Shown here: positions 19,772-55,150 of the stretch, piece after piece | Layout: each line of letters opens with the position of its first letter | How positions within the stretch are numbered: the stretch's first letter is position 1 | NCBI GenBank assembly: GCA_026390575.1 | Contig: JAPLFR010000013.1 | Span: forward strand, 1 to 64,000 | DNA length: 64,000 nt | Direction of reading: 5' to 3' | Source of the DNA: Ignavibacteriales bacterium | Lineage (GTDB): Bacteria; Bacteroidota; Ignavibacteria; UBA10030 | Made by a program: the position numbers and the translations under genes | Notes under the pieces: model-generated | Seen by the model: the letters and a program-made list of their open reading frames with translations, nothing else | What the model was told of the DNA's origin: nothing | Database searches by the model: none

Positions 19772-20530
19772 TTACTTTTTCCCGATAAAATCCAAAATAG
19801 CATTGATGATAGTGAGAGGATGTGGCGGACAGCCGGGGATAAACAAATCGATTTTTACCGTATTGACAAATTCGCGATTCAATTCGTTGGATTCAGCAAA
19901 CACACCGCCACTAATTGCGCAGGCGCCGACGGTAATAACAATTTTCGGCTCGCTGATACTTTTATAGGCATCCAGTAAAGCCGGCGCCATATTTTTTGTG
20001 ATAGGCCCGGTGATGACAATGCCATCCGCATGGCGCGGCGAGGCAACGAAATCGATGCCAAAGCGTCCCATATCAAAATTGACATTTCCGCAGGCAGATA
20101 ATTCCATCTCACATCCATTACACCCGCCGGTGGAAACCTGTCTCAGTTTTAAGGAGCGGCCGAACACTGTATGTATTTTTTTCCGTGCTTCGATTGCTGA
20201 TGCAACATAATCAGTATAATCCGTTCCCGGTGCGACAACGAGATGATCTTTCTTTGAGGCCGCTATTTTATAATTATTGCTGAAATGGATTGCTCCATTC
20301 GATGCGCGTTCGCATTCACCGCAAAAAATACATTTTCCAAGATCGATTGCCAACGGATTTTTCGCTATTGCATTCGTTGGGCACATATCGACAACTTCTT
20401 GCCAATCGTTTGTGTGTTTCGTTTCGTCAATAATTGGAAAGCCACGATGCGTTTCCATCAACGCAGCATTTCGAATATCTGCAATCGCTTGAAAGCCATG
20501 ACGTATTCTAAGTTTTATGAGGTCGAGCAT
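19772..20530 (-). CDS. Ehr-type complex small subunit (NuoB/HycG-like) with N-terminal ferredoxin-like domain
   Basis: Electron-transfer subunit of a group 4 hydrogenase/complex I-related membrane complex. The C-terminal half is the NuoB/20-kDa fold, with all four ligands of the proximal [4Fe-4S] (N2-type) cluster: C137 and C140 (GGCNGCE), C204 (VGACAISGG) and C234 (PGCPPHP). The N-terminal part derives from a 2[4Fe-4S] ferredoxin like HycF/NuoI, but only one cluster's ligands remain: C50 (CPTNAI) with C67, C70, C73 (CIFCGEC); the other set is gone. It is the last gene of the operon, 15 bp after the large subunit. A ferredoxin or another soluble partner may deliver electrons here. Confidence 0.85.
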   Translation of the reverse strand: MLDLIKLRIRHGFQAIADIRNAALMETHRGFPIIDETKHTNDWQEVVDMCPTNAIAKNPLAIDLGKCIFCGECERASNGAIHFSNNYKIAASKKDHLVVAPGTDYTDYVASAIEARKKIHTVFGRSLKLRQVSTGGCNGCEMELSACGNVNFDMGRFGIDFVASPRHADGIVITGPITKNMAPALLDAYKSISEPKIVITVGACAISGGVFAESNELNREFVNTVKIDLFIPGCPPHPLTIINAILDFIGKK

Positions 20531-20545
20531 TCTTCACCAATAGTA

Positions 20546-22045
20546 TTACAAATCAATACCACAATAGGAAAGGTTGAAACTCTTGTTGCATAACGGAAAG
20601 TCGGAGATCCCTTCATCGCGGACAGCCAATGCCAAAGCAAGCCAGTTATTAAATGAAGGATCTTTGATTTTCAAACGTTTGATGTTCCCATCATTATCCG
20701 TGAGCAGTACGTGAGCAATTTCACCGCGCCATCCTTCGGTCAGGGAAACGACGAAACGGTTTGGCTGAAGCGAGGATACAATATTCTTTGACTCACCTTC
20801 TGAAAGATTATTCAATTGGTCACGAATTATTTTAACGGATTGCTGAATCTCTACAAAACGAATATATGCTCTTGCAAATACATCCCCGTTGTCCAGCGTT
20901 AATTTATGAACGGGAAAAGATTCATAGGCACCAAACGGATGATCTGCACGTACATCGATTGCGACACCGCTTGCTCGTGCCGCAGGACCAACCATGCCAA
21001 TTTCTCTTGCTGTTTCTTTTTCTATAATTCCGGTCTTTTCAAATCGTTCCAGAGTAGATGCTGACGTGAACAAGACTTCACCCGCCAAAAGCACGTCATC
21101 TTCAAGTTCATTGATTGTTGCCAATATTTTGTCTTGCAACTGCGAAGAGATCGTATAATGAACACCGCCAATTGCTAACAATCCCCTGCCGAATCTGTTG
21201 CCGCAAATGGACATTGTTGTATTGATAACTTTTGTGCGAAGCGCGCCAAACACAGAATTACCTGTCAGATATGCAACGTCACCAGAGAGTGCGGACAAAT
21301 CGCCAAGATGAACAGCGATCCGTTCCAGTTCAAGGGCAATCGTACGTATCGTTTTTACTGTTCGCGAAACCGATATCTTTCCAGCAGATTCCATCGCACG
21401 GACAAATGTACCGCAATGACCAATAACTGTATCGCCGGCAATAGATTCCGATAACTTTTCGAGATAGACAGGGCGATTGTTATTCTTTATGAAGAGCGCT
21501 TCAACCCCGCGATGCTGGAAGCCGTGCTCGATTTCAAGATGATATATTTTTTCACCGTGGCAGGAAAATCTGAAATGGCCGGGTTCGATAATGCCTGCAT
21601 GAATTGGGCCTACACCCACTTCATGAATTTCTTCGCCGGTCATGCTAAAGAATTCGTAGGGTGTTTCACGCTGATCAATTCCGGCAATTCCATGCCGGAC
21701 GGGTTTGAGCCAGGGATGTCCTTCCGGTGTGATTTCAAACTGTTCAAATAGTTCACGTTCAAACAACGATGCGGAAGGTATCTCGGATGTAAAAGAGTGA
21801 TAGTGTGATTGAAAATTAATCTTTGAGGAAGCGACACTCAATCTTGAGTTATTATCATCAGCAACGATCGCGTACATCGCAATTCCGTCGGTTTCTTTAT
21901 CGGCGAAATATTGCACCAATCGCCTACCGCTTTTAATTTTCTCTATGAGCTGATTTCGTAAATCGTCAATATGCAGCCGCGGTATCTCATTCAATGAGAT
22001 TGATTGTAAATTTTTTATTTCGGCCCAATTCAATGGAAACCCCAA
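20546..22045 (-). CDS. Ehr-type complex large subunit (NuoCD/HycE-like) without nickel ligands
   Basis: A fusion of a NuoC-like N-terminal domain (about 1-120) and a NuoD/hydrogenase large-subunit domain (about 135-499; GPIHAGIIEPGHFRF, HGFQHRGVEALF). Energy-converting NiFe hydrogenases bind nickel with an N-terminal ICGIC and a C-terminal DPCxxC. Here the first site reads VIGHCGTF with only C211 left, and the C terminus reads FPLCNKSFNLSYCGIDL, with C486 and C495 but no CxxC. It therefore should not bind Ni-Fe(CN)2CO, and no maturation genes are present. The start is a TTG directly after the preceding TAA and no ATG is available; translation is probably coupled. The reaction catalysed is unknown. 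Confidence 0.83.
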   Translation of the reverse strand: MGFPLNWAEIKNLQSISLNEIPRLHIDDLRNQLIEKIKSGRRLVQYFADKETDGIAMYAIVADDNNSRLSVASSKINFQSHYHSFTSEIPSASLFERELFEQFEITPEGHPWLKPVRHGIAGIDQRETPYEFFSMTGEEIHEVGVGPIHAGIIEPGHFRFSCHGEKIYHLEIEHGFQHRGVEALFIKNNNRPVYLEKLSESIAGDTVIGHCGTFVRAMESAGKISVSRTVKTIRTIALELERIAVHLGDLSALSGDVAYLTGNSVFGALRTKVINTTMSICGNRFGRGLLAIGGVHYTISSQLQDKILATINELEDDVLLAGEVLFTSASTLERFEKTGIIEKETAREIGMVGPAARASGVAIDVRADHPFGAYESFPVHKLTLDNGDVFARAYIRFVEIQQSVKIIRDQLNNLSEGESKNIVSSLQPNRFVVSLTEGWRGEIAHVLLTDNDGNIKRLKIKDPSFNNWLALALAVRDEGISDFPLCNKSFNLSYCGIDL

Positions 22046-23479
22046 TTATTGAAAAAATCCAACAGCGCCATTGAGCAAATCAAGGACTTGCTTCGGCATA
22101 TTTATTCCGATGATACAAAGAATGAGAAGCAGCACCAGTTGAGGCGCATAAGCATAGGCAGCAAATTTTTTACTTCCCGCATTGGCTGTTTGTACATCAC
22201 TAAAAGCCATTTTGAATACAGTGCCGCCCATACCAAACATGATAATCACGAGAAACAAGAAGAATGGGATTGCAAGCCAAGACATTCCACTTAACCAAAA
22301 AGCCCTTACAATTAAAAATTTGCTGATGAAAACAGGAAACGGCGGGAAGCCGATGATAGCAAGCATGGAAATAATCCAAAGCCAGCCGGTCCGCGGATCT
22401 GTTTGAAGCAATCCATTCACTTCTTCAATCCTTTTACTTTTATATAATTGCAGGATATTGCCTGACGTCAGAAACAATGATGCCTTTGAGAGTGAATGAG
22501 CAAGCGTATGAAGAAGAGCGGCGAATATTCCGTACTTGCCAAGTGCAATTCCAATGAAAAGGATGCCCATGTTCTCGATGGAAGAATACGCAAGCATTCT
22601 CTTGTAATTCTTTAATCGCAGCATGAAAACAGCACTCACCATCAAAGAAAGAAAACCGGTAATGAGAAAAAGAAAATTCGAGAAGTCGTCTAACCGAGCA
22701 TGAATAAATATTTCCTGAACACGAAGCAAACCAAGAAGAGCGGAATTCAACAGTGCCCCGGAAAGCAGCGCAGAGACAGGCGAAGGTGCTTCGGAGTGGG
22801 CATCCGGCAGCCATGCATGGATTGGTGCAACACCAATTTTCGTTCCCAATCCAACAAAAATGAATGCAAACGAGACCTTGAGCCAAAACGGATTTATTTC
22901 AGAAGCGCGAGCATAGAGATCCTTGAAGAACAACGAATCAATGTGCCGACTGCCGATAGAAAGCACGATGATGCCGACAAACGCCAGCGCAATTCCAATG
23001 GAACAAATGAAAATGTACTTCCACGCAGCCTCTAAGGATGATTTTTTCTTTTCAAAATAAATCAACATTGCGCTTGTCAATGTCGACGCTTCAATAAAAA
23101 CCCAAAGCGAGGCTAAATGTGTTGAAAGAATGACGCCGCTCATAGAGACAATAAAAAACAGAATTTCAATAATATAGACAGCTTCTTGCTTTGCAGAGAG
23201 CGCATGTATTTTAAAATAAAAAAGACTGTACACTGCGGCGCTGCCAAAGACGAGTGTCATAATTGAAAAGAAGTAGAGTCCTATCGTATCAAATTGAAAG
23301 TATGTTAAAAACCATGTCGGCAGCACGTACCATTCAATATTCATCCACTGTGCCGCAGCAATGACAACATACAGAACGGCAGAACCGATCAAAGCAATGC
23401 GATTCACAAGTTTATTTCTTGCTATCACACTCCATAATCCAAATAGTATCGGCATAAAAAGTACTAATCCAATCATCAT
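22046..23479 (-). CDS. Ehr-type complex antiporter-like membrane subunit (HyfF/NuoN-like)
   Basis: A polytopic Mrp-antiporter-like subunit with about 14 predicted TM helices, expected to move protons or Na+. Key family features are the helix with LWVFIEASTLTSAMLIYFEK (TM5 acidic residue) and the discontinuous helix region KIGVAPIHAWLPDAHSEAPSPVSALLSG, followed by the lysine-bearing KRMLAYSSIENMGI. At about 477 residues it is standard for HyfF/NuoN. It starts at an ATG sharing one base with the previous stop, with AAAGGA upstream; a second ATG immediately follows and may be the true start. Confidence 0.88.
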   Translation of the reverse strand: MMIGLVLFMPILFGLWSVIARNKLVNRIALIGSAVLYVVIAAAQWMNIEWYVLPTWFLTYFQFDTIGLYFFSIMTLVFGSAAVYSLFYFKIHALSAKQEAVYIIEILFFIVSMSGVILSTHLASLWVFIEASTLTSAMLIYFEKKKSSLEAAWKYIFICSIGIALAFVGIIVLSIGSRHIDSLFFKDLYARASEINPFWLKVSFAFIFVGLGTKIGVAPIHAWLPDAHSEAPSPVSALLSGALLNSALLGLLRVQEIFIHARLDDFSNFLFLITGFLSLMVSAVFMLRLKNYKRMLAYSSIENMGILFIGIALGKYGIFAALLHTLAHSLSKASLFLTSGNILQLYKSKRIEEVNGLLQTDPRTGWLWIISMLAIIGFPPFPVFISKFLIVRAFWLSGMSWLAIPFFLFLVIIMFGMGGTVFKMAFSDVQTANAGSKKFAAYAYAPQLVLLLILCIIGINMPKQVLDLLNGAVGFFQ

Positions 23480-24114
23480 CAATCCTTTAATTCTGTAAGT
23501 TCATCAATATGACTGCCGTCGTACATCTCTTGAATTTTGTTGAAGAAAATAACGAAGAGATAAATACCGACAAAAAGATCGAGCAAGACGCCAAGATTCA
23601 CCAGGAAGGGCAATTCGTTGGCGACAGAAAGTGAGAGCAGAAAGATTCCGTTCTCCAGCATCATATAGCAGAGGATGTGCGTAATGATTGTTTTGCGGTT
23701 AATAATGAGGAAGAGGCTTGAAACAATCAACATAATGGATACACCGAAGTAGAGCGGCTTGATGCCGGCATTTGTTTTTGCTGCCCAGAATGCAGCAACA
23801 AATCCAAAAGCAAAAATTGCGCTTGCAAAAATAAGCGAATAAAATTGAGTAATGTAAGGCTCTACTTCCCGTGCAATTTCATTTTTGCGGATGACTGTTA
23901 AGAGAAAGTATGGAATAACAATAGCTTTGATCACTAATGTCTCCAGACTGAGAAATGCAATGTTCAACCAATTGATTTCTTGAATATCCACTATGACAAG
24001 GAGAAAAAGAAGGAATCCTTGCAATGCTAATGTTTTTACATACGCTTCAATGCGACTGACGGCAAAGACATAAAGCATACTTGTACCGAGAAGAATGATC
24101 AGGATATCGGTCAT
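23479..24114 (-). CDS. Ehr-type complex subunit HyfE-like (NuoK-related)
   Basis: A 211-residue membrane protein with about 6-7 TM helices. The C-terminal half is NuoK-like (ITHILCYMMLENGIFLLSLS, with the membrane Glu typical of NuoK, and a final helix ending FFNKIQEMYDG); the N-terminal half is the extra region found in HyfE. It overlaps the preceding gene by 4 bp and the next by 1 bp, so it is translationally coupled. GGAGG lies 6 bases before its ATG. It likely contributes to ion translocation between the antiporter-like subunits. Confidence 0.86.
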   Translation of the reverse strand: MTDILIILLGTSMLYVFAVSRIEAYVKTLALQGFLLFLLVIVDIQEINWLNIAFLSLETLVIKAIVIPYFLLTVIRKNEIAREVEPYITQFYSLIFASAIFAFGFVAAFWAAKTNAGIKPLYFGVSIMLIVSSLFLIINRKTIITHILCYMMLENGIFLLSLSVANELPFLVNLGVLLDLFVGIYLFVIFFNKIQEMYDGSHIDELTELKD

Positions 24115-25034
24115 GAAAGACCTCCGCGCAGAAAGAATGCAACGACTGCAAACGCTGTCAAAGAAAGAGCTGTCATAAGGAAAATGAATTGTGGAACATG
24201 CGACATTCTCGAACGCGCAATGAGCGATTCAACCGCTCCAACGGCTATATATATAAAGATAAGAACCCCGAAAAAGAGGCAGAGCGCAGCGATCGATGGA
24301 AAATATGGCGGAATACATAAATTTGCAATCAACATTGCAATGAGCATCATTTTCATCCCGGCAGCATAAACCATAAAAGCTAAATCAGGGCCGGAGTAGT
24401 CGAGAATCATTACTTCGTGAATCATGGTAAGTTCGAGGTGCGTGTTGGGATCATCAACCGGAACTCGGCTGCCTTCAGCTAAGAGCATAATAAACAATGA
24501 AGCCACTAAAAGAATTTTTACCAAGAGTGAATAACCAGCGCTCACAGTCAGCATCGCAAATATTGCCTCGAACGAGATCTGATTGGTCAATAAGGCAAGT
24601 GTGCCAAGAACAATAAAGAATGCCATCTCTACCAAGGTTGAAAATGTAACCTCTCTGCTCGCTCCCATTCCTTCAAAACTGCTGCCGGTATCTAACGCTG
24701 CAAGCACCAGCATAAATTTTGCCAATCCAAGTGTATATGTGAATACAATGAAATCTCCCGGAAAATGGATGATCGACCCAATAAATGGAATTGGAATAAA
24801 CAACATCGCAAAGAGTGCTGCCGCAATATTTACAGAAGGGGCAATCTTTAATATAAAGGAAGTTGTTTTACTTATGACCTCTCCTTTGCGGAGGAGTTTC
24901 AGGAAATCATAGTACGGTTGAAAAACCGACGCGCCTTTTCTGCCAGCCCATCGGGCTTTGGTTTTATTGATAATGCCAATAAAAAGAAAAGGCAAAACGC
25001 AGGTTATCGCAAAAACAAATATCTTCGTCATCAT
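24111..25034 (-). CDS. Ehr-type complex subunit HyfC/HycD-like (NuoH-related)
   Basis: Membrane anchor subunit, about 307 residues with 8 TM helices, that connects the soluble electron-transfer arm to the ion-pumping arm. Family signatures are ARWAGRKGASVFQPYYDFLKL (the RxGPR-like loop) and the acidic loop AEGSRVPVDDPNTHLELTMIHE, which in complex I shapes the quinone or coupling cavity. I chose the ATG at 25034 (ATGATGA, overlapping the stop of the upstream gene). An in-frame ATG at 25121 would add 29 residues lying wholly inside that gene and without hydrophobic character. Confidence 0.88.
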   Translation of the reverse strand: MMTKIFVFAITCVLPFLFIGIINKTKARWAGRKGASVFQPYYDFLKLLRKGEVISKTTSFILKIAPSVNIAAALFAMLFIPIPFIGSIIHFPGDFIVFTYTLGLAKFMLVLAALDTGSSFEGMGASREVTFSTLVEMAFFIVLGTLALLTNQISFEAIFAMLTVSAGYSLLVKILLVASLFIMLLAEGSRVPVDDPNTHLELTMIHEVMILDYSGPDLAFMVYAAGMKMMLIAMLIANLCIPPYFPSIAALCLFFGVLIFIYIAVGAVESLIARSRMSHVPQFIFLMTALSLTAFAVVAFFLRGGLS

Positions 25035-27013
25035 TTGCCGCCCCAAATCCAAAGAAGAAGAAAGACTAAGAAGATTAACCCGTAAATAATATACTGCTGC
25101 ATTCTTCCACTTTGAATCCATGAGAATTTATTGAGGAAGTTATTCAATAACCGTATGGATGGTTGAATAAGTACTCGCTCCGAAAAATCTTGCGCATGAC
25201 TTTCAAACGAAGCGCGCGTTGGGAACAACACCTGTTCTTTATGAACTTGCACTTTTTGCGGGACCAACTCGGCAGTCAACTGTAAGAACGGCTGAGCGAA
25301 AGAACTAGCCGTGTATTGCATACGGCTACTTTCTTTTTGGTATCCGCAATCCCAAGTTTTGAAAACTTGCACAGACCTTTTTCTCAGTAAAACAGTTCTT
25401 ATGGTAAAAAAGGACCCAATCAAAATAATGAAGATAGAGAGTGAGGTCGATATTGTCGTCATCAACGAAATAATTTCCGGCATTGCTGTATGAGATGCAT
25501 CTGGTAGAAATTGTCCGACGGCGGATGACAGCAACTTGATTGCAAATACAGGGAAAACACCGATCACGATCATGGCGAAGACTAAAAAGGCCATTGGGAG
25601 AAGGAGTGAATATTCTTTTTCTTCTGGTGTGAAGTGCAACTCTGATCGAGGTGTGCCTAAAAAACAAATTCCATAAACTTTGGTGAAACATAAAAGAGCC
25701 ATTGTGCCAATAAGCGCTAAGCCGGATAGTCCCATGAGAGCAGCAATATTGAATGCAATGTTGTTGATTGAAAAGCTTCTTGCGAGGCCAAGAAATATTA
25801 CAAATTCACTAATAAATCCGTTCAGTAACGGCATGCCGCTAATTGCGAGTGAGGCAATCAAAAACAGGATAGATGTAAATGGCAAATACTTGCTTAGACC
25901 GCCGAGTTTATCAATATCTCTTGTATGAGTTTGTGAGTACACTATTCCAGCTCCATAAAACAAAACACTCTTAAAAGTAAAATGATTGATCGTGTGCAAC
26001 AAAGCTCCAAGAAAGCCGAGTGCCGCAATAGGTGTGTTATTATACACTAAACCAAGCATACCAATGCCAATTCCCATCCCGAGGATGCCGATGTTTTCTA
26101 TGCTATGATATGCAAGCAATTTTTTAAGATCGTGCTGTGCTATAGCATTTGCCACACCATAGATACCGGTGACAATCGACATGACAATAACCCCGTACGC
26201 CAAACGATAGTCTGGAACACCGACCAGTAAAAGAATTCTCAGAATTCCGTAAACGCCCATTTTAATCATTACACCAGACATGAGCGCCGACACACCAGTC
26301 GGAGCTGCGGGATGCGCTTTAGGCAGCCACGTGTGCATAGGCACAAATCCGGCTTTTGTGCCAAATCCAAGAAAGAAAAGAATAAAAATGAAGATTGAAG
26401 AACTGCCCGAATTGCAGACAACACTTTTAAAAGAATTAAAATCGAGCGAACCTGCGATGGCGGAAGACCAACCGAATGCTGCAATGAGAAAAGCAGCACC
26501 AATTTGCATTGCAACGAGATAATAGATACTTGCTTTGCGCACTTCTTCTTTCTTATGTTCAAAGTTGACAAGAAAGAACGAGGTAAGCGACATCGTTTCC
26601 CAAACAACAAGGAAGAGCAGAGCATTTTGAACTATGACGACTAAAAGCATTGAAGATGACATCAATCCTAAGAAGAAATAGTAAGATGAAAGGTCTGATG
26701 TATCTCCAGCATACATTTTCATATAGCCGTGGGAATAAACGGCGGCAAACAATGCGCCGAGAGAAATAATGAGAGAAAAAAGTGCAGCTAAAGGATCCAA
26801 TCGAAGAAATGATATTCCGATAGGTTCAGAGAAAAAGAATTGCGCATCGATCTGTCCACCGGATAAAAGAATTCCAATGACGCTTGGGAGAATACATAAT
26901 TGAGCAATTACGGCAAATACTATGAACGCTATCGATTTAAATTTTTCTTTGAGAAAAAGAGCAACGAATCCTCCGACAGAAAAAAGCGCCGTACCGATGA
27001 GCAAGCTAATCAT
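25031..27013 (-). CDS. Ehr-type complex antiporter-like membrane subunit (HyfB/NuoL-like)
   Basis: The largest membrane subunit, 660 residues, about 16 TM helices. The antiporter core is recognised by NALLFLVVWETMSLTSFFLVN (TM5 Glu), the broken helix GFVPMHTWLPKAHPAAPTGVSALMSG and LLAYHSIENIGI. The C-terminal extension carries a soluble stretch (VFKTWDCGYQKESSRMQYTASS) common to HyfB/EhrA proteins, and then a last TM helix. The chosen ATG at 27013 overlaps the stop of the regulator gene (ATGA) and has GGAGG 10 bases upstream; an upstream start at 27040 would add nine non-hydrophobic residues. Confidence 0.9.
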   Translation of the reverse strand: MISLLIGTALFSVGGFVALFLKEKFKSIAFIVFAVIAQLCILPSVIGILLSGGQIDAQFFFSEPIGISFLRLDPLAALFSLIISLGALFAAVYSHGYMKMYAGDTSDLSSYYFFLGLMSSSMLLVVIVQNALLFLVVWETMSLTSFFLVNFEHKKEEVRKASIYYLVAMQIGAAFLIAAFGWSSAIAGSLDFNSFKSVVCNSGSSSIFIFILFFLGFGTKAGFVPMHTWLPKAHPAAPTGVSALMSGVMIKMGVYGILRILLLVGVPDYRLAYGVIVMSIVTGIYGVANAIAQHDLKKLLAYHSIENIGILGMGIGIGMLGLVYNNTPIAALGFLGALLHTINHFTFKSVLFYGAGIVYSQTHTRDIDKLGGLSKYLPFTSILFLIASLAISGMPLLNGFISEFVIFLGLARSFSINNIAFNIAALMGLSGLALIGTMALLCFTKVYGICFLGTPRSELHFTPEEKEYSLLLPMAFLVFAMIVIGVFPVFAIKLLSSAVGQFLPDASHTAMPEIISLMTTISTSLSIFIILIGSFFTIRTVLLRKRSVQVFKTWDCGYQKESSRMQYTASSFAQPFLQLTAELVPQKVQVHKEQVLFPTRASFESHAQDFSERVLIQPSIRLLNNFLNKFSWIQSGRMQQYIIYGLIFLVFLLLWIWGGK

Positions 27014-27699
27014 GTATTCACGGCCTCCTTTTTCTGCCATTCGAATTCTCTCTTGCGGACATACTCCAAAATCGTTTCTGTATTTGAATGTTCTTTCAAA
27101 ATGTTTAAGAATGTATCATCTTGACATAAATAGGAGATTTTAGAAAGCACTTCTAAATGCATCTTAGGACTTGCTGTGAGCAAAATAAAAAGAGTATGGA
27201 CAGGTTGATTATCTAAAGAACCAAAATCAACCGGCTTTTCCAAACTACAAATTGAGACACTCGCATTTTTTAAATCGGTAATAATAGGATTGCGTGGATG
27301 AGGAATTGCAATGCCTTTACCAACTGACGTCGGCATCAGCTCTTCCCTGCTCAGCAGAGCAGAGAGAATTTCTTCTTTCGATATGTTTTGCGGTGTGATG
27401 ATTCTTTGAACCGCACTTTGTAAAACTTCACGGACAGTTTCTCCTGAGACTTGAGTAACAATTCCACCTTTTTCTACAAGCCGCTCTAAACTATCACGCC
27501 TATCTGGATTTGTCAAATTAATTAATGTAGAAGAAAGCTCTATCTTATTACTCAAAATCCATTCATTAATTTCCGTTCTATTAAAACGATATTGATGATT
27601 GATTCGATAACAGGGAATTTTTTTATTTTTGATCCAGCGGTAAACAGTCTTTTCGGATACTTGTAAAAGATCGACAATATCCTTGATTTTGAGCTCCAT
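27010..27699 (-). CDS. HTH-EIIA(Ntr) fusion protein, likely regulator of the Ehr-type operon
   Basis: A 229-residue protein joining an N-terminal excisionase/MerR-like helix-turn-helix (KDIVDLLQVSEKTVYRWIK, then IPCYRINHQYRFNRTEIN, residues 5-48) to a PTS EIIA domain of the nitrogen type (about 85-222). The phosphorylatable histidine is H134 in GKGIAIPHPRN, and the EIIA end HLEVLSKISYLCQDD is intact. No EIIB/EIIC transporter is nearby, so it is not a sugar importer. It heads the operon and overlaps the first complex gene by 4 bp, so it plausibly couples PTS(Ntr) phosphorylation to expression of the complex. AAAGGG lies 6 bases before the ATG; direct repeats lie 40-88 bp upstream. Confidence 0.85.
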   Translation of the reverse strand: MELKIKDIVDLLQVSEKTVYRWIKNKKIPCYRINHQYRFNRTEINEWILSNKIELSSTLINLTNPDRRDSLERLVEKGGIVTQVSGETVREVLQSAVQRIITPQNISKEEILSALLSREELMPTSVGKGIAIPHPRNPIITDLKNASVSICSLEKPVDFGSLDNQPVHTLFILLTASPKMHLEVLSKISYLCQDDTFLNILKEHSNTETILEYVRKREFEWQKKEAVNT

Positions 27700-27738: not shown

Positions 27739-27787
27739 TTAATGTCCAATATTGTTTATATGAATATCCTTTAATGTCCGAAGTTGT
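27739..27787 (-). promoter_or_regulatory. Two direct repeats, candidate binding sites of the HTH-EIIA regulator
   Basis: ttaatgtccaatattgt (27739-27755) and ttaatgtccgaagttgt (27771-27787) are in the same orientation exactly 32 bp apart, about three helical turns, ending 40 bp upstream of the regulator's start codon. On the minus strand the shared unit is ACAAnnTnGGACATTAAnGG. Direct, non-palindromic repeats suit an excisionase-type HTH. Confidence 0.5.
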
Positions 27788-27819
27788 CCATATCATTATT
27801 CTTACAATAAATTATTGGT

Positions 27820-38917: not shown

Positions 38918-40921
38918 TTATTTTTTCGCTTTTAGTAATATATTTTTATATTGTTCTATAATCTGAGGAGGGACTTTATGACCTAGAGCTATTGATCGTT
39001 GAACATCTTCCCATGCTTTTACTGGCTGTCCTATATTTTGATAAGATATTGCTCTATCAAGGTAAACATCGCCCGCATTAGGATTGAGAGCTAACGATCT
39101 GCTATAATCATTTATTGCATCAATGGGCATTCCTTTTCGTGCATACGCGAGTCCTCTGTTATACCACAATGTTGAGTTATTAGGTGTTATTTTCATTCCT
39201 TCATTAAAATTGGCAATTGCCGAATCGTACCTCATAGTATTTAAATAGCAAACTCCGCGTCCATTATATCCGCCCATAGCGGTAGGAAATAACTGTAAAA
39301 GCCTATCAAACTTAACAAGAGCAGAATCATAATTTTTCATTAAACAATACACGTTAGCTAAATTCACCATTGCGTCGGGATATATCGGATTAAATTTTAA
39401 TGCACTATCCAAATCGGCTTTAGCCATATTTAGATCTTTTCCTAATAAAGCATAAACCATACCTCTATTATTATAGGCTTCAGCGCAATCGTGCTTTATT
39501 TTAATTGCCATATTGCAATCAGCTATTGCTTCATCATATCTCCTTTGGTCGATTAATATTTTTGCTCGACCGTAATATGGCCTAGGTTTATTAGGAGATT
39601 TTTCTATGATGTCTGTCATAAAAGAAACTTCAGTTTTCCAAACTTCATTGCGCGAATAAGCAGCATAGGAATATGAAGACACAATAATTAGTAATGAAAT
39701 ACCAACAAAGCGGTGGCTCGTCTTTCTGAGGACAAAATAATAAAAGGAACTTACCAGAAATAGGACATACCCAAACATTGGTAAATAAAGACGATGTTCA
39801 AAAATAACATCAGTTATCGGAAATATGCTGGACTCTATTGAGAGCGTAAGAAAGAACCAGAATATTCCAAAAGATAATAATCTATATTTCTTAAATGAAT
39901 ATATTCCACCTATTATGATTCCAATTAACAATAATAAACTGCCCATTGTTGCAAAATCCCATAAGGTCTTTGATAATGGGAAATCATAGTCAAGGTTCTG
40001 ATTGATAGGAATAAATAACAATCTAATATATGTAACCAGTACACGAAACTGTGTCATCAAATAATCTAATCTAGAAATCTGGATTGTTTCCCGCGGCAAT
40101 CCTCCGGAAAATATTTTTAAAAAAGCGATCACAATTATTGTTAATGCAGCTATTATGTATCTCCAATAAATCTTATTCTCCTTATCACGAATAAAGAATA
40201 ACTCATACATAATAAGAGCACCGGGCAGCGAATAAACTATTTCTTTACTCCACATCCCCAGAACAAATCCAATGACAGCGCCTAGATAGAAGACCAATGA
40301 TAATACTTTTCTTTTCCCCTCAATCTGTATCATCCTTCCTTGGACATAAAGGCATAGTGATAGTATATAAAACATCGTTGCCATCGATGTCATTCTTTGC
40401 ACTATATATGTTATTGCATTTGTTTGTATAGGATGTGCTACAAATATCAACGCACCAAATAATGCTATATATTTTGAATATTTACTTACCTCTTCAGAAC
40501 GCATTACCGGTGTTTTAAATGTTAATAGTAATAACCAGAAGACAGAAAGTGCAGTTAGCGTATGAATTATACTGTTTACAACATGATAGCCGTAAACATT
40601 TAGTTCACTCCAATGATAATTTAGTGCAAATGTCAAATAAGAAAATGAACGACTATTTGTAAGTCTTGTCCATTTCGAAATATCTGTGAAATTAGATAAA
40701 TGTCTAAGATCTAAATTATTAATAATAGAGCCGTTATCATCATACTGAAATCCAGACTGAAGAGTATTGGAATAAACAATTAGGCTTAATGAAATAATTC
40801 CTATGATCGATAGGAGGTAAATAACTATTTCTTTCCTATTGCCAACAAGTAGTTTTTTACGGGCGTTCATTCTCGAAGCTTCAATATTCTTTCTTTTATT
40901 TCTAGCGCTTTTTTTACTCAT
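38918..40921 (-). CDS. Polytopic membrane protein with C-terminal TPR repeats (GT-C / TMTC-like)
   Basis: A 667-residue protein with a Lys/Arg-rich N-terminal tail, about 10-12 TM helices (residues 30-430), and then six TPR repeats (about 440-650, for example DEAIADCNMAIKIKHDCAEA, YDSAIANFNEGMKITPNNS). After the first TM helix a loop with the acidic pair FQYDDNGSI is the place where GT-C enzymes keep their catalytic acid. The layout matches TMTC-type O-mannosyltransferase-like proteins of bacteria: a lipid-linked sugar donor would be used on the periplasmic side and the TPRs would hold the protein acceptor. Enzyme activity is not established. AAGGAG lies close to the ATG. It stands next to the glycan locus and may serve it. 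Confidence 0.72.
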   Translation of the reverse strand: MSKKSARNKRKNIEASRMNARKKLLVGNRKEIVIYLLSIIGIISLSLIVYSNTLQSGFQYDDNGSIINNLDLRHLSNFTDISKWTRLTNSRSFSYLTFALNYHWSELNVYGYHVVNSIIHTLTALSVFWLLLLTFKTPVMRSEEVSKYSKYIALFGALIFVAHPIQTNAITYIVQRMTSMATMFYILSLCLYVQGRMIQIEGKRKVLSLVFYLGAVIGFVLGMWSKEIVYSLPGALIMYELFFIRDKENKIYWRYIIAALTIIVIAFLKIFSGGLPRETIQISRLDYLMTQFRVLVTYIRLLFIPINQNLDYDFPLSKTLWDFATMGSLLLLIGIIIGGIYSFKKYRLLSFGIFWFFLTLSIESSIFPITDVIFEHRLYLPMFGYVLFLVSSFYYFVLRKTSHRFVGISLLIIVSSYSYAAYSRNEVWKTEVSFMTDIIEKSPNKPRPYYGRAKILIDQRRYDEAIADCNMAIKIKHDCAEAYNNRGMVYALLGKDLNMAKADLDSALKFNPIYPDAMVNLANVYCLMKNYDSALVKFDRLLQLFPTAMGGYNGRGVCYLNTMRYDSAIANFNEGMKITPNNSTLWYNRGLAYARKGMPIDAINDYSRSLALNPNAGDVYLDRAISYQNIGQPVKAWEDVQRSIALGHKVPPQIIEQYKNILLKAKK

Positions 40922-41019
40922 GAAACTCCTTAAGACGGTATACTAAATGTAACTTAACATTTAAAATAGAAATAAAACTCACTTAAAGCCACATTATCAA
41001 TTGAATCCAGGTTTAATGA

Positions 41020-41265
41020 ATGATCAGAATTTTACCCGATCTCTCAATTGGATTATTATTGGTTCTATTGCCGATTCTAATAAATGATCTTGTATTCCAT
41101 GCGGCACAGTGCCGCGAAAAAATTGCGATTTCTATGAACGAAACGCAATGCTACTTATTTGAAGCGGTACTAGGTCCCCGAGCCATCGACACAAATAACT
41201 ACTGGTTAATAAAAGAAGAAATGATAAATTTCGACCAACCGATTATTTTACAAATATCTGTTTGA
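41020..41265 (+). CDS. Doubtful small ORF with a hydrophobic N terminus
   Basis: An 81-residue plus-strand frame occupies most of the 320-bp gap between the TPR protein and the first glycosyltransferase, overlapping the latter's 3' end by 23 bp on the opposite strand. It begins MIRILPDLSIGLLLVLLPIL, which could be a membrane segment; the rest matches nothing I know. Only AGG is seen as a ribosome site. The rest of the gap shows no other feature. It may equally be chance. Confidence 0.2.
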   Translation: MIRILPDLSIGLLLVLLPILINDLVFHAAQCREKIAISMNETQCYLFEAVLGPRAIDTNNYWLIKEEMINFDQPIILQISV

Positions 41266-41992
41266 ATCTGAACAACAACGTCGATAATAAATATAGCGGA
41301 GTTACATTGAGGTTATTGTTTTTCATTGCTAAATAACATTCCCAAACACTTCGTGCTATATTTATTAAACTTTTATTGCTTTTGCCGCTGTCGCGCATTT
41401 TAATTAAAACGTCAGGAATATAACATGTGGACACAGAATGTTTACATAGAAATCGAATCATCAATTCCACATCAGATGAAAATTTATAATCTGTGTTAAA
41501 GACGCCCAATCTATCATAAATATTTTTCTTTACAAAAAATGTCGGATGCGGTGGGAACCATCCCTTTTTAAAATTATCTACATTGCAAGAAATAGACTTC
41601 CAATATCTTGTCACCTTCATTAAATCATTCCTCTTAACATACACCACATCACCATAACAACTATCAACTTTATTAAGATTAATTTCATCAACAATATGTT
41701 GGATCACTCCATTGTCTGCATAATAATCATCGGCATTCAGAAAACCTATTATATCGCCCGTAGCCATCTTAACGCCTTTATTCATTGCATAATAAACACC
41801 ATTGTCAGGTTCTGAAATCCATTGGGATATATTCCCATTATATTTTCTCAATATATCAATGGTTCCATCGGTCGAGCCACCGTCAATTACGATATATTCA
41901 ATATTTTTATAAGTCTGGCCCATAACGCTATCCATACAACTAATAATTGTATCGACATTATTGAGCACGATTGTAATAATAGTTACTTTCAT
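41243..41992 (-). CDS. Family 2 glycosyltransferase
   Basis: Transfers a sugar from a nucleotide donor during surface-glycan assembly. 249 residues with the GT-A fold: KVTIITIVLNNVDTIISCMDSV, VIDGGSTDGTIDIL (donor-binding Asp), and LNADDYY, the DxD-type metal site, near residue 86. ISEPDNGVYYAMNKGV is typical of WcaA-like GT2 enzymes. Donor and linkage are unknown. It is the last gene of the minus-strand glycan run, 14 bp after the GT4 gene. Confidence 0.9.
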   Translation of the reverse strand: MKVTIITIVLNNVDTIISCMDSVMGQTYKNIEYIVIDGGSTDGTIDILRKYNGNISQWISEPDNGVYYAMNKGVKMATGDIIGFLNADDYYADNGVIQHIVDEINLNKVDSCYGDVVYVKRNDLMKVTRYWKSISCNVDNFKKGWFPPHPTFFVKKNIYDRLGVFNTDYKFSSDVELMIRFLCKHSVSTCYIPDVLIKMRDSGKSNKSLINIARSVWECYLAMKNNNLNVTPLYLLSTLLFRFKQIFVK

Positions 41993-42006
41993 TTCAAATA
42001 TGATTC

Positions 42007-43200
42007 TTATCCTGATACAATTGTTTTTATTGTATTTCTAAATCTATTATTAAATACTTCTTGGGTATAGTGTTTTACTATTTCATAACCCTTTATTCTA
42101 AGACTGTCTCTCAACTTGTTATCATTCAATAAAGACAAAATTGAATTTTCGATTTCAGAAACAGAATTTGGATTAAAATAAATCGCCGCTTCAGATAATT
42201 GTTCTCTCATTGCATAGACATCTGAAACACTAACCGGACAACCAAGTGCAAGAGCTTCAAGTGGTGGAATATTGGTTGGACCACAAAACGAAGGAAAAAT
42301 AAACACATGAGCCTTTCGATAGATATCTACTATTTCTTCATTTGAAACATAACCCAGGATATGAACGTTTTCTTTAATATTTAGTTCATGTATCAGGGTA
42401 ACTATTTTATTATAATAATTCTTTTTTGAACCGGTAAATACTAGATGAATATTAGGATATTTCTTTATCACGTTAGCAAAAGCGTAAATAAGATTTTCGT
42501 GATTTTTATGCTTCCAAAATTGAGCCGGATAAAAGATGAATTTACCTGGAAGCGTTAATGAGCCTTTTTTATTCTGAATATTATTATGTTGATAAATATA
42601 ATCTGGTATAACAAATGGCATGACAAATATTTTATGATTATCAATATCATATGATTCCATCAACTGATTTTTCCCCAAATTAGAATCAACAAAAATATAT
42701 TGACAGTATTTACACATTTTCTTGAATACTTTTTCTCTCCAATAATATATCCTAAAAGATGATATTTCGGGAAAACCACGCTCATATCGATGCATTAAAT
42801 CATGTACAACACCAATAGACTTGATAGGCATTTGGTAGCTTGTAAAGCTATAAGAAGAAAAAACCCATAAATCACAATTCTGTTTTTTAACTTTATTAGC
42901 AATTGGATCTATCAATGGCGATATTTTATACCATATTTTAAGTGGTAAATTAAATAAAGTGATCAAAATTCCGAATAAATAGGATAATTTTGCAAAGGGG
43001 ATATAGAATTTATCACATGTTAAATTTGATAAGTAGCTTTCCCAAATTATTTCTGTATAAGCAATGGAAATTTCATATTCATCTTCAGGCAATTTATTAA
43101 AAGCATCAAGAAGAGAAAGATTATATTGAAATTGTCCACCCCATTCAGGAGTACAACCTAAAAACAAACCAATTTTCTTTTTCAATTTCTCCTCACACAT
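42007..43200 (-). CDS. Family 4 (GT-B) glycosyltransferase
   Basis: A 397-residue retaining-type glycosyltransferase. The C-terminal domain shows LPGKFIFYPAQFWKHKNHENLI, HLVFTGSKK, VHILGYVSNEEIVDIYRKA and the donor-binding FIFPSFCGPTNIPPLEALALGCPV, with the E-x7-E motif varied to PPLEALALG. SIGVVHDLMHRYE is a common feature of mannosyl/rhamnosyl-type GT4 enzymes. The ATG at 43200 has GGGGTG just upstream; an in-frame TTG at 43212 is less likely. Confidence 0.9.
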   Translation of the reverse strand: MCEEKLKKKIGLFLGCTPEWGGQFQYNLSLLDAFNKLPEDEYEISIAYTEIIWESYLSNLTCDKFYIPFAKLSYLFGILITLFNLPLKIWYKISPLIDPIANKVKKQNCDLWVFSSYSFTSYQMPIKSIGVVHDLMHRYERGFPEISSFRIYYWREKVFKKMCKYCQYIFVDSNLGKNQLMESYDIDNHKIFVMPFVIPDYIYQHNNIQNKKGSLTLPGKFIFYPAQFWKHKNHENLIYAFANVIKKYPNIHLVFTGSKKNYYNKIVTLIHELNIKENVHILGYVSNEEIVDIYRKAHVFIFPSFCGPTNIPPLEALALGCPVSVSDVYAMREQLSEAAIYFNPNSVSEIENSILSLLNDNKLRDSLRIKGYEIVKHYTQEVFNNRFRNTIKTIVSG

Positions 43201-43383
43201 TAAACACCCCAACTATTAGACTTTTGAACTATTTTGCTCATACATTTCTTAAAATCTAATATTATCAATCTAATATCATACAATACATATTCTAACTCGA
43301 GTATGAATTAATTTATTGAGAAATGAAGATTCTTTTTGTAAATATTGTTTTTTTAAATCAGATTATAATACTTTGAATAATTA

Positions 43384-44511
43384 TTAAATATACTCAAGTA
43401 AAACCTCTTTCAAAGAGTTGACAATATATTCAATATTATCGTTTGTTAATGTAAGTCCGCTAGGTAGATAAAAACCCTTTCGTGCTATTCGCTCTGCTAT
43501 TGGATAACTCTCATTCATAAACAAGCCCATTCTTTTTAAAACAGGTTGTTCATGCATAGGCCAGAAAAAAGGTCTGGTTCCTATGTTTCTTGCTCTTAAT
43601 TTGGACATTATTTCATCATTATCTACATTGAGAAAGTCATGAAGAACAATTCCATAAACCCAATATATGTTTTCAGCATACTCAATCTTGGCCAAGGGAG
43701 TTTGAATCCATGAAATATTTTTCAACAGCTCATTGTATAGTCTACCCATTTCCCTTTTCTTTTGAACATGCTGTTCAATTCTTTCAATTTGCGCCAGACC
43801 AATGGCAGCCTGTAAATTTGACATTCGATAATTCCAACCTATTTCATCATGCACATATCTTTTCTTCTCTTGAAAACAAAGATTCCTCAACGATCGACAC
43901 CTTTCAGCCAATTTAGGATCATCAGTAACAATCATTCCGCCTTCGCCTGTAGTAATATGTTTGTTCGGATAAAAACTAAATGTACTTAGGTTTCCAAAAC
44001 TTCCACAGGGATTTCCTTTATAGGTTTGACCATGCATTTCAGCGGCATCTTCAATAATAAATAAATTGTGTCGGCGAGCAATATCTAAAACAGGATCCAT
44101 ATCGACTGGTAAACCATAGATATGCACTATAAGAATAGCCTTTGTTCTATTAGTAATCTTTTCTTGAATTTGATTAATCTGCATGTTCCACGTTATAGGA
44201 TCTGCGTCAATTAGTACTGGAATAGCACCAGTTCTTACAATTGCGGTGGCACAAGAGATTATTGTAAAAGAAGGTAGAATGACTTCATCTCCTTTAGTAA
44301 TTCCCAATGCTTGTATAGTAATATCCAAAGCTGCGGTACCATTTGCGACGGCAATTCCATATTTACGGTTGACATATGACGCCATTTGTTGTTCGAACTT
44401 ATTAATAAATGGACCTTCAGACGAGATCCACCCAGTGTCTATGCACTCAAGAAGATATTTCTTCTCGTTGCCATCCAACAAAGGTTCATTTACAGGTATA
44501 AACATTTCCAT
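43384..44511 (-). CDS. DegT/DnrJ/EryC1 (PLP) sugar aminotransferase
   Basis: Adds an amino group to a keto-sugar nucleotide using PLP, usually with glutamate as donor. Near-perfect family pattern: NGTAALDITIQALGITKGDEVILPSFT, the PLP-phosphate region, IIEDAAEMHG (Asp pairing with the PLP ring nitrogen) and internal aldimine Lys K184 in SFYPNKHITTGEGG. The C-terminal RPFFWPMHEQPVL is typical of perosamine synthetase-like (GDP-4-keto-6-deoxymannose) enzymes, which suggests a 4-amino-4,6-dideoxy sugar. No matching 4,6-dehydratase is in the window. The formyltransferase-like gene nearby could act on the product. Confidence 0.92.
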   Translation of the reverse strand: MEMFIPVNEPLLDGNEKKYLLECIDTGWISSEGPFINKFEQQMASYVNRKYGIAVANGTAALDITIQALGITKGDEVILPSFTIISCATAIVRTGAIPVLIDADPITWNMQINQIQEKITNRTKAILIVHIYGLPVDMDPVLDIARRHNLFIIEDAAEMHGQTYKGNPCGSFGNLSTFSFYPNKHITTGEGGMIVTDDPKLAERCRSLRNLCFQEKKRYVHDEIGWNYRMSNLQAAIGLAQIERIEQHVQKKREMGRLYNELLKNISWIQTPLAKIEYAENIYWVYGIVLHDFLNVDNDEIMSKLRARNIGTRPFFWPMHEQPVLKRMGLFMNESYPIAERIARKGFYLPSGLTLTNDNIEYIVNSLKEVLLEYI

Positions 44512-44514
44512 TAC

Positions 44515-44946
44515 TTATTCAATAATATTAATTTTTGATTTTTCTACACCATTAAATCTAGTTTTATCCCCTTCTCCAGAATATGGACCTTGCTTGACTT
44601 CGACCATTTCTATATCTTCGAGGACTTCAAAACCGTGACCACCTGTTGCCAGTAAAATAATATCTCCTTCAGCTAATATTCTACTTTCACAATATATTTT
44701 ATTCTCATCATAAAAATCTACACGCAGTTTCCCTTTTTTTATAAATAATACTTCTTGAGTATACTCTACATTTCTTACTATACAATTGTGAACATGAGGT
44801 TGAATACTTTTTCCTTTGGGATGGTTCATATATGCTAGTTGCTGCGAATAATTGTCTCCAGTAAAAAAATGAATTCCGGGTTCAGAATAATTATTCCTAA
44901 CGATTACCGAAAGAATCTTTCCATCAATTTTTATATACTCTACCAT
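44515..44946 (-). CDS. Cupin-fold protein of glycan cluster
   Basis: A 143-residue single-domain cupin. The metal site looks like KSIQPHVHNC followed by the conserved YTQEVLFIKKGKLRVDFYD strand, and the second motif is GDIILLATGGHGFEVLE. Such stand-alone cupins are frequent in O-antigen and capsule clusters and may be sugar epimerases, isomerases or unknown; the function is not inferable. It ends 3 bp before the aminotransferase start, so they are translated together. Confidence 0.7.
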   Translation of the reverse strand: MVEYIKIDGKILSVIVRNNYSEPGIHFFTGDNYSQQLAYMNHPKGKSIQPHVHNCIVRNVEYTQEVLFIKKGKLRVDFYDENKIYCESRILAEGDIILLATGGHGFEVLEDIEMVEVKQGPYSGEGDKTRFNGVEKSKINIIE

Positions 44947-45051
44947 TCTACATTACTCTTTTTTGAAAAGGGTACCTAGTTAATATTGAATTTTGCAGTC
45001 TAGTTAATACAGGAGGTACTAATTCATCCAGTAATTTCTAATTCCTTAACA

Positions 45052-45984
45052 TTACCTAAAAAATGATTGCAAATAATCAAAAACACTTCGTAAAAATTTT
45101 AACCCAAATATATTTTTAATACGTAAACTTGATAAATACTTAGTTACTTGAATATCATATGCTCTGTCAACAACAATATGTGGGTTTATTCTTAAAGGTG
45201 TGTGGATGTTATGCACCTCTTTGTTGCTAATATTGGGGTAAAAAAATTTTGTATGCGTTGCATCAATCCCAAAACCAATATTTGAGATTAAATTTACAGA
45301 AGGAACAATCGATAGAGCAGAGTACTTATAATGTGCAAATACCCATTGATGGTCCCAAGTATCAATCTTGCCGCCATAAGTTGCATTAAAATGCTTCATT
45401 TTTTGCTTATATAGAATATCATTACCAATCATTTTTTTAATATGGTGCCTTACATCGGGGTCTGACCAGTCCTCCATTTTAATGTCAAAATATTTCCAAG
45501 CTCTTCTCCATGATGCCCACCCCCACACATCAACATGTTGAGTAAAATGATAATCCTGTGTATCCGACTTCCATTCCCCTAAAGTATTGGATCCAGAAAT
45601 GGAAAATATTCTATTATCGTCTCTAAACATTTTCAATAACTGAGCACAATATTGAAAGAATGAAGGGTCCGGGATGCAATCATCCTCCAAAATAATTCCT
45701 TCTTCAACGTTTTGGAAAAACCAATCTATAGAAGAACTTACACCCATTTTACAGCCAAGATTTTTGTCCCTGAACAATGTTTTAACGTTGCATTCCCAAT
45801 CAATATTGCTTAGAATGTCACGAACATTTTCACAGTTGATTAAATCTTCCGGATTATTATTTCTGGGACCGTCTACTGCTATACATAAATCCTTAGGCTT
45901 TAATTCTCTAATTTTATCAAATACTTTTTTTGTGGATTGCGGTCTATTGAAGGCTATGACTAATATGGGTATGTCAAATTTCAT
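45052..45984 (-). CDS. HlpA-like GT-A glycosyltransferase
   Basis: A 310-residue protein of the nucleotide-diphospho-sugar transferase superfamily, in the group often labelled hemolytic protein HlpA-like. It opens with FDIPILVIAFNRPQSTKKVF, has LFRDKNLGCKMGVSSSIDW, and the metal-binding GIILEDDCIPDPSFF (DD-type DxD); HVDVWGWASWRRAWKYFD is the acceptor region typical of the group. A role in glycan assembly is expected. The linkage is unknown. Confidence 0.85.
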   Translation of the reverse strand: MKFDIPILVIAFNRPQSTKKVFDKIRELKPKDLCIAVDGPRNNNPEDLINCENVRDILSNIDWECNVKTLFRDKNLGCKMGVSSSIDWFFQNVEEGIILEDDCIPDPSFFQYCAQLLKMFRDDNRIFSISGSNTLGEWKSDTQDYHFTQHVDVWGWASWRRAWKYFDIKMEDWSDPDVRHHIKKMIGNDILYKQKMKHFNATYGGKIDTWDHQWVFAHYKYSALSIVPSVNLISNIGFGIDATHTKFFYPNISNKEVHNIHTPLRINPHIVVDRAYDIQVTKYLSSLRIKNIFGLKFLRSVFDYLQSFFR

Positions 45985-46036
45985 TTGTGAGAATCACTTT
46001 CATATTTATGTTATCTCAAATTGTGAATTACATTGT

Positions 46037-47017
46037 TTACATTTTGATTGTTTTATAAATATTTCGCAATAGAAATTGAATTCTTGATGCTTTGTAAAAA
46101 GTCGGGGGCAATTTCAATAATAATGCGATTAATAGTAAATACCTTTTGCCAAACAAGTACTTAAACCTTTTGTCCAGTTTTTTGTTAAGAATCCTTCCTT
46201 CGCTTCTGAGTAATAGAACATAATTTATTAATGATAACTTTCTTTCAGAATAATATTCTTTAAATAGTTTTGCTGGTACATTTTGGGGATAATTTAAGTG
46301 ACAATATTTAATGACCTCAAGCTCCCCACTAAATATGTCCAATAGTTTCATTGTATCTTGCTGCCACCCATCATTTGGGATTCTGCCTATTACATATGGA
46401 TGAGCAATTATATAAAAATTCAAATAATTTATTACGGATAATAAAGCGCCTATTTGAATGAATTGAGTGCCATAAAATGGACTTTTATTAACACCGTCCC
46501 ACCAATATTTCTTCAATATATAAGATGGCAAAAAACCCGGTAAATTCTTTAATGACGTAATGGAATAAAACTGCTCCTTATTACTACATAAAATGTCTTC
46601 TTCAATGTCCAACATTTTCTTTACAATAATGGAGTCTAAATTATGTGATTTCTGACTATAGTTGGCATAAATGAAATCTATTTGAGGGTTATCATAAAGA
46701 ACATTAAGTACCTTTTGAACCGCTCCTTCATCTAATATGTCATCTTGGCCAATAAACCAAATAAATTCACCTTCTGCTAAATCAGCAACCCTCTCAAAAT
46801 TTTTATCCATTCCTAAAGTAATACTATTCTGGAATAATCTAACATTTTTATACTTAATCCTATAATTATCAACAATCTGGTACGTATGGTCAGTAGAGCG
46901 ATCGTCGCAAACCACTAATTCTACATTATCAACAATTTGTTTTGTAATGGATTCGAGAGTTTGCGAAATATGTGATTCGCCATTATATGCAGGTAAGACA
47001 ATAGATAGTTTGTACAT
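46037..47017 (-). CDS. Family 2 glycosyltransferase
   Basis: A 326-residue GT-A enzyme from the ATG at 47017, which gives the normal start YKLSIVLPAYNGESHI; the longer frame to 47071 runs into the upstream gene. Motifs: VVCDDRSTDHTYQIV, LGMDKNFERVADLAEGEFIWFIGQDDIL (DD metal site). The C-terminal third is Lys/Leu-rich and may contact the membrane. It starts 11 bp after the previous stop. Confidence 0.88.
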   Translation of the reverse strand: MYKLSIVLPAYNGESHISQTLESITKQIVDNVELVVCDDRSTDHTYQIVDNYRIKYKNVRLFQNSITLGMDKNFERVADLAEGEFIWFIGQDDILDEGAVQKVLNVLYDNPQIDFIYANYSQKSHNLDSIIVKKMLDIEEDILCSNKEQFYSITSLKNLPGFLPSYILKKYWWDGVNKSPFYGTQFIQIGALLSVINYLNFYIIAHPYVIGRIPNDGWQQDTMKLLDIFSGELEVIKYCHLNYPQNVPAKLFKEYYSERKLSLINYVLLLRSEGRILNKKLDKRFKYLFGKRYLLLIALLLKLPPTFYKASRIQFLLRNIYKTIKM

Positions 47018-47028
47018 AACAAATGACT

Positions 47029-48021: not shown

Positions 48022-48028
48022 GTCTTTT

Positions 48029-50164: not shown

Positions 50165-50175
50165 AATATTCCTTT

Positions 50176-54010: not shown

Positions 54011-54121
54011 ATGGATTCAATTACCATTATGAAATTAACCTTAACGGATTTATTAAAATATTGAGAACGGGTGCAAACTTTTTCCAAAAAACTTGATAGT
54101 TGCCTTTTAATATAATTTCCC

Positions 54122-54892: not shown

Positions 54893-55150
54893 CAATCAGT
54901 CCGTTCTAATAAGCACTAATAAAAAATTGGTTCTGTTAACCAAAATGATAGTTTGAAACATATCCCGGTTTTAGAAAATCATTTAATCGGGAGGATAATA
55001 TTATTCAAAACTATTTATTACGTCCTCCTTTTTCCGTTCTTTGATATGGTGGCTGTAAATGGATTACGAGATCCATTTGTAACTTTGATATCATCATCGT
55101 GGCATTGACTATGAGAAATAATTCTATTGACCAATACAAGAATGGTTCAA

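Follow-up and report, generated by a model that had tools for sequence, protein, structure and literature searches.

What a membrane complex built like a hydrogenase does once its nickel ligands are gone, and what tells the cell to make it, is the question raised by an operon in a 64,000-nucleotide stretch of DNA from an Ignavibacteriales bacterium (contig JAPLFR010000013.1, assembly GCA_026390575.1; the whole stretch is called the window below). The operon appears to encode an energy-converting hydrogenase-related (Ehr) complex, and it is headed by a gene for a winged helix-turn-helix (wHTH) protein fused to an EIIA domain of the phosphotransferase system (PTS), here called HTH-EIIA. We read the complex as a ferredoxin-linked, ion-pumping Ehr oxidoreductase rather than a hydrogenase, run by HTH-EIIA and a GGACA operator under the state of the PTS, and we give this reading a probability of roughly 0.6. 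The regulator and its site are better supported than the mechanism. The features concerned are as follows.

27743-27789, minus strand: putative operator, GGACAacttcGGACAttaaaGGATA (27789-27765) with a further TTGGACATTAAGG (GGACA at 27747-27743)
27010-27699, minus strand: HTH-EIIA gene, 229 aa, proposed dedicated regulator (Pfam PF12728, HTH_17, 5e-16; PF00359, PTS EIIA, 4e-29)
25031-27013, minus strand: HyfB-like antiporter subunit of the NuoL/M family, channel residues E/K/K/E present (NCBIfam hydrogenase 4 subunit B)
24111-25034, minus strand: HyfC-like membrane subunit of the NuoH family (PF00146, 3e-31)
23479-24114, minus strand: HyfE-like, NuoK-like membrane subunit (NF008556, hydrogenase 4 membrane subunit, 1e-17)
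22046-23482, minus strand: HyfF-like antiporter subunit of the NuoN/M family with channel residues (NF005044, hydrogenase 4 subunit F, 3e-94)
20546-22045, minus strand: large subunit, HyfG/HycE/NuoCD-like with an N-terminal NuoC-like domain, AGDT at site 1 and NLSYCG at site 2, without Ni ligands
19772-20530, minus strand: small subunit, N-terminal half-ferredoxin (Fer4_11) and NuoB/HycG-like domain (PF01058, 1.5e-29)

The operon consists of seven genes with HTH-EIIA first, the end of that gene overlapping the hyfB start by ATGA. The hyfB start at 27013 is a good one, with the Shine-Dalgarno sequence AAGGAGG in front of it; the open reading frame (ORF) listed for hyfC reaches 25121, but its ATG at 25034 is the one that overlaps the stop codon of hyfB. 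Chance is ruled out for the family assignments because E-values range from 1e-4 (HyfE, Pfam) to 4e-160 (HyfB), the HyfB score of 534 bits against hydrogenase 4 subunit B lying below the curated cut-off of 667. The six genes after HTH-EIIA amount to a complete core of the group 4 hydrogenase/complex I type. The first-pass annotation of this DNA had described them as a six-subunit complex in the order HyfB-C-E-F-G-I, and the minus-strand ORFs from 27013 to 19772 bear this out; the four N2-type cysteines it had noted for the small subunit are present, and no hyp genes adjoin the operon. Its statement that nearly all the genes are coupled by overlaps of 1-4 bp holds as far as tight packing goes, with ATGA overlaps at hyfB/hyfC and hyfC/hyfE and the remaining junctions within about 15 bases. 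Its list of the six hydrogenase-like genes was right, and it overlooked both the PTS-type regulator gene at the operon head and the half-ferredoxin at the N-terminus of the small subunit. The genome encodes further NiFe large subunits, every one of them on a different contig (C15); hyp genes outside this region are therefore uninformative on the Ehr operon.

The HTH-EIIA protein combines the two parts of a PTS-controlled regulator, a DNA-binding domain (HTH_17) and a PTS domain with a phosphorylatable histidine; its nearest solved structures are those of PtsN, and His134 in the motif GIAIPH is the presumed phospho-acceptor. Among 67 Ehr loci with enough upstream sequence, the gene is present at 49, spread over about 14 named phyla, and half of the 18 loci lacking it are of Melainabacteria type. 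The EIIA histidine is present in 48 of the 49 proteins. Full-length matches were found in 7 of 296 Bacteroidota genomes, every one of the seven at an Ehr locus, and Ehr itself occurs in 11 of these genomes (hypergeometric p 9e-12, kinship not corrected for); the HTH domain is short, and distant HTH-EIIA proteins elsewhere may have escaped this search. No earlier report of a link between HTH-EIIA and Ehr was found in the open-access literature searched, and the link is provisionally taken to be new.

The association was further strengthened by the DNA in front of the gene. A GGACA repeat was first spotted by reading the upstream DNA of seven loci, after which pairs were counted at all spacings. 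GGACA-N5-GGACA gave 27 matches in 23 of the 49 regions upstream of HTH-EIIA genes, against 0.61 expected, and with the seven suggesting loci omitted there were still 20 matches in 17 of 42 regions, where dinucleotide shuffles gave 0.47 (maximum 2). Gaps of 5, 15 and 25 are raised, a period of 10 bp, and the sites lie on both strands. Among relatives of this wHTH, BldC and RdfS occupy DNA head to tail, one protomer covering about 10 bp (PMC11963761). None of the 18 loci lacking the HTH-EIIA gene has the pattern close upstream of the operon (Fisher p 1e-4), and the operator is found at 21 of 29 loci whose recognition helix has the canonical Arg-Trp, against 2 of 20 without it (p 1.5e-5, kinship not corrected for). 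From these patterns we propose that HTH-EIIA acts as a dedicated, PTS-responsive local regulator of the Ehr operon.

Perfect matches to the operator across the genome (G000) number three, one of them at Ehr, against four for a reversed-pattern control; counts in 18 further genomes are likewise close to control, and 17 of the 20 non-Ehr matches inspected lie inside genes. A wider regulon was accordingly dropped as a route to the redox partner, and since matches elsewhere are at chance level the switch looks private to the Ehr operon. A degenerate recognition helix (TVYRW changed to EVQxL or similar) without a GGACA operator was observed at loci L043, L045, L046, L081, L091, L119 and L132, and some HTH-EIIA loci with such a helix adjoin a SulP gene; the retention of the EIIA histidine in these proteins suggests a role away from DNA.

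The large subunit was compared with 90 homologues (80 loci from a bacterial genome scan plus loci from a phylum search). Its best matches are HycE of formate hydrogenlyase (138 bits), MbhL (129) and Thermus Nqo4 (97). In the joint alignment CGIC of HyfG falls on AGDT (203-206) and DPCYSC on NLSYCG (491-496), so that by alignment none of the four cysteines that form the two CxxC pairs of a group 4 [NiFe] hydrogenase is left. The first-pass annotation had rightly seen that the protein lacks a CxxC pair, its only cysteines being at 162, 211, 281, 486 and 495, but had assigned C211 to Ni site 1, which maps to A203-G204-D205-T206 when the protein is aligned with HyfG and MbhL. C211 was rejected as a remnant ligand: it comes one residue past His210, and most homologues have Ala, Thr, Asn or Ser there. 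C486 and C495 do not line up with the ligand positions. The CxxC pair is absent at both sites in all 90 homologues, the second Cys of each being substituted by Thr, Ser, Ala or Arg at site 1 and by Gly at site 2; a single isolated Cys stands at one Ni position in some distant homologues (for example at position 203 in L105), the pair never.

In place of the ligands the homologues share a new pattern, GD[T/S]...NKSFxLSYxGxD, in which G204, D205, K488, Y494, G496 and D498 are invariant, S493 is kept in 89 of 90 and 87 of 90 have Thr or Ser at position 206. Conservation of D205, [T/S]206, K488, S493, Y494, G496 and D498 indicates selection on the former Ni site rather than decay. His38 and Tyr87 of the Thermus 49-kDa subunit, which we take to be the quinone ligands of complex I, correspond to Ile153 and Gly204 in all 90. 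Judged from these residues, the pocket does not qualify as a Ni site or as a standard quinone site, though it is strongly conserved. An AlphaFold2 model built on 52 aligned homologues (mean predicted local distance difference test score 89; loop 147-156 and C-terminus 495-499 poorly determined) is closest to HycE (7z0s_E, Z 44.9, root-mean-square deviation 2.6, 479 residues), followed by complex I 49-kDa chains (Z about 40-43 across about 350 residues); the modelled fold tells little that the sequence does not, and does not discriminate between substrates.

The electron path and the membrane arm present as intact. Four cysteines of the small-subunit half-ferredoxin (C50, C67, C70 and C73) are enough for one [4Fe-4S] cluster, and these together with the N2-like C137, C140, C204 and C234 are 95-100% conserved. 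HyfB retains the equivalents of Glu144, Lys234, Lys265 and Glu407 (NuoM numbering); HyfF retains Glu144 and Lys234, with mostly Glu or Lys at position 407; and the acidic residues of HyfC and E152 and D177 of HyfE are kept. With these proton-channel residues retained in all four subunits the pumping arm looks intact, and the operon probably encodes a complex I-like, proton-pumping membrane complex. A second HyfB-type antiporter gene was observed at about 17 Ehr loci (L043, L047, L089, L098, L099, L104, L121, L125 and others), where the membrane arm is possibly longer.

Published Ehr complexes have no settled function and no CxxC Ni motifs (PMC10284858, PMC4378227, PMC6349859, PMC7894505). The present complex is filed with them because they share its features, namely lost Ni motifs, Hyf-type subunits and an unsettled function, and its operon is Hyf/Ech-like with antiporter-type membrane subunits; membership of the Ehr family is supported by these comparisons. 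The earlier description of an Ehr-type complex without a Ni site and with an unsettled reaction is likewise upheld by the HycE-like sequence and fold and by its place in a clade with Geobacteraceae sequences among its 90 Ni-less members. In a quick tree, computed without EhrL of Geobacter sulfurreducens, the 90 Ni-less large subunits lie on one side of a branch, apart from HyfG/HycE, and two Geomonas sequences fall inside their clade, with long branches flagged by the program.

The surroundings of the 90 loci yielded no recurring redox-partner gene and no recurring formate dehydrogenase family, which favours a general soluble carrier. In GC-rich loci, clusters called on the minus strand across the core genes were set aside as shadow ORFs. 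The genome also holds two complex I-type clusters, the second of which (L055, G000:C6:158100-178000) seems by eye to be without NuoEFG. As for the PTS, an HPr gene, an adjoining EI-like gene and a second EIIA were found, and a search restricted to family PF02378 returned no EIIC, a combination that fits a regulatory PTS.

Further EIIA domains were observed at other Ehr loci: fused to SulP and STAS between the large- and small-subunit genes (L051:6939-9137, plus strand), joined to two CBS domains in the gene that immediately follows the small-subunit gene (L094:12308-13210, plus strand), and standing alone (L136). SulP permeases occur at 9 of the 90 loci, in Bacteroidota, Spirochaetota and Planctomycetota, and one Ehr operon carrying SulP also has KdpA and a KdpB-like P-type ATPase beside it (L049:15640-19389, plus strand). 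No SulP family gene is present in this genome, for which SulP was therefore rejected as a general Ehr partner. For the family at large, we consider the odds slightly better than even that much of bacterial Ehr is a PTS-gated energy converter, in which a private wHTH-EIIA would read EI/HPr and bind GGACA-N5-GGACA, and in which, where the HTH is degenerate or EIIA has SulP or CBS as a fusion partner, EIIA would act directly on the complex or on an anion permease.

The sequence itself shows the lost Ni ligands, the intact cluster ligands and channel residues, and the tie of regulator and operator to the operon; the carrier, the acceptor, the direction of the reaction, the phosphorylation and the DNA binding are what we infer from these features. 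A soluble low-potential carrier, most likely ferredoxin, would donate to the single [4Fe-4S] cluster of the half-ferredoxin, from which electrons would move on via the N2-like cluster to a substrate in the rebuilt Ni pocket, perhaps a quinone in non-canonical binding or another small molecule. The reaction would power the HyfC/HyfE/HyfB/HyfF arm to pump H+ (or Na+), the reverse direction being possible, and no H2 would be made. HTH-EIIA would bind the GGACA-N5-GGACA direct repeats before the operon; the EIIA domain and its conserved histidine point to phosphorylation by EI/HPr as the signal, so that Ehr expression would track the state of the phosphoenolpyruvate-fed PTS.

Several readings compete with this one. 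A cryptic group 4 hydrogenase, making or using H2 at an unusual metal site or serving as a formate hydrogenlyase whose formate dehydrogenase is located at a distance, would suit the subunit set, the HycE-like fold and the presence of other NiFe hydrogenases in the genome, and Geobacter Ehr is more abundant with formate (PMC7894505); the substitution of the second Cys of each CxxC throughout the homologues and the lack of a formate dehydrogenase family recurring near Ehr loci make it extremely unlikely. A ferredoxin:quinone oxidoreductase resembling complex I without NuoEFG, with quinone in the classical cavity, is doubtful: the fold is close to NuoD-type chains and the small subunit joins an N2 cluster to a ferredoxin-like domain, but the His38 and Tyr87 positions are Ile and Gly in every homologue and the genome already holds its complex I-type clusters. 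The altered pocket could also be the reduction site of a sulfur or other small-molecule reductase like Pyrococcus MBS, a Ni-less relative whose reduction of other substrates is a precedent. The polar, conserved pocket residues would fit, but MBS/Mbx keep one CxxC in the large subunit where Ehr has none, and no substrate-specific partner gene recurs, which leaves this reading rather unlikely.

Two further readings bear on purpose and control. Ehr might serve ion or inorganic-carbon homeostasis, powering uptake of HCO3- or a similar anion with SulP under PTS-Ntr control, to a purpose like that of NDH-1MS; the SulP permeases at 9 of the 90 loci and the SulP-STAS-EIIA and EIIA-CBS genes within or after Ehr operons speak for it, whereas most loci and this genome have no SulP, and we regard it as distinctly unlikely. 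That the GGACA repeats are mere -35 promoter elements and the HTH-EIIA link incidental synteny gains from the resemblance of TGGACA to TTGACA, two copies scoring as weak -35 boxes, but is very unlikely given that only spacings 5, 15 and 25 stand out, that sites occur on both strands, that the 18 loci without the HTH-EIIA gene have no site near the operon, and that the operator covaries with the recognition helix. Against the ferredoxin-linked, PTS-controlled reading itself stand six points: Ile153 and Gly204 make quinone reduction in the known manner doubtful; no partner gene pins down the donor; the rise of Geobacter Ehr on formate (PMC7894505) would also fit a formate-linked donor; the EI-like gene was recognised by eye; a recognisable operator is missing at 26 of the 49 HTH-EIIA loci; and the p-values count related loci as independent.

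Ehr complexes are widespread in bacteria with their reaction unsettled, and a private regulator offers a first testable handle. If the proposal is true, regulator, operator and PTS signal would reveal when cells want Ehr and provide a simple switch for it, while the residues newly conserved in the Ni pocket are candidates for point mutants. The Ni-less site is also a warning that calling such operons hydrogenase 4 is misleading annotation.

Elsewhere in the window, a 1048-aa ORF (50864-54010, minus strand) is an unusual fusion of MobA-like NTP-transferase, pyruvate phosphate dikinase (PPDK) ATP-binding and PEP-utiliser mobile domains, clustered with glycosyltransferases and a DegT aminotransferase. 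The region 40001-56000 has a G+C content of 0.30-0.34, against about 0.44 across the first 36 kb; its glycan-type genes may form a surface polysaccharide cluster gained by horizontal transfer. A 669-aa ORF (55151-57160, minus strand) has no Pfam match.

Compared with known systems, the complex shares with Ehr of Geobacter, Nitrospira, Sulfobacillus and others the kind of subunit set, the lack of CxxC Ni motifs and the unsettled reaction, and differs in that the HTH-EIIA regulator, its operator and the EIIA/SulP links are undescribed in the papers searchable. The large subunit is nearest in sequence and fold to that of E. coli formate hydrogenlyase/hydrogenase 4 (HycE, HyfB-I), whose membrane subunits are also alike, and it retains Glu154 of the EPGHFR motif; in contrast, the operon lacks the Ni ligands and the partner genes HycB/HyfA, HyfH or FdhF, the large subunit has no C-terminal extension for the maturation protease, and the small subunit carries a fused half-ferredoxin. 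Core subunits, N2 cluster and channel residues are held in common with respiratory complex I (NuoBCDHLMNK), whereas the NADH module NuoEFG and the His/Tyr quinone ligands are missing and the large subunit ends in NKSFNLSYxGxD. On the regulatory side, HTH-EIIA has the EIIA histidine in GIAIPH in common with PtsN (EIIA-Ntr), but is fused to a wHTH domain and tied to one operon, and its wHTH is of the type found in BldC and RdfS, which bind DNA in steps of about 10 bp (PMC11963761), with the fusion to EIIA setting it apart from both.

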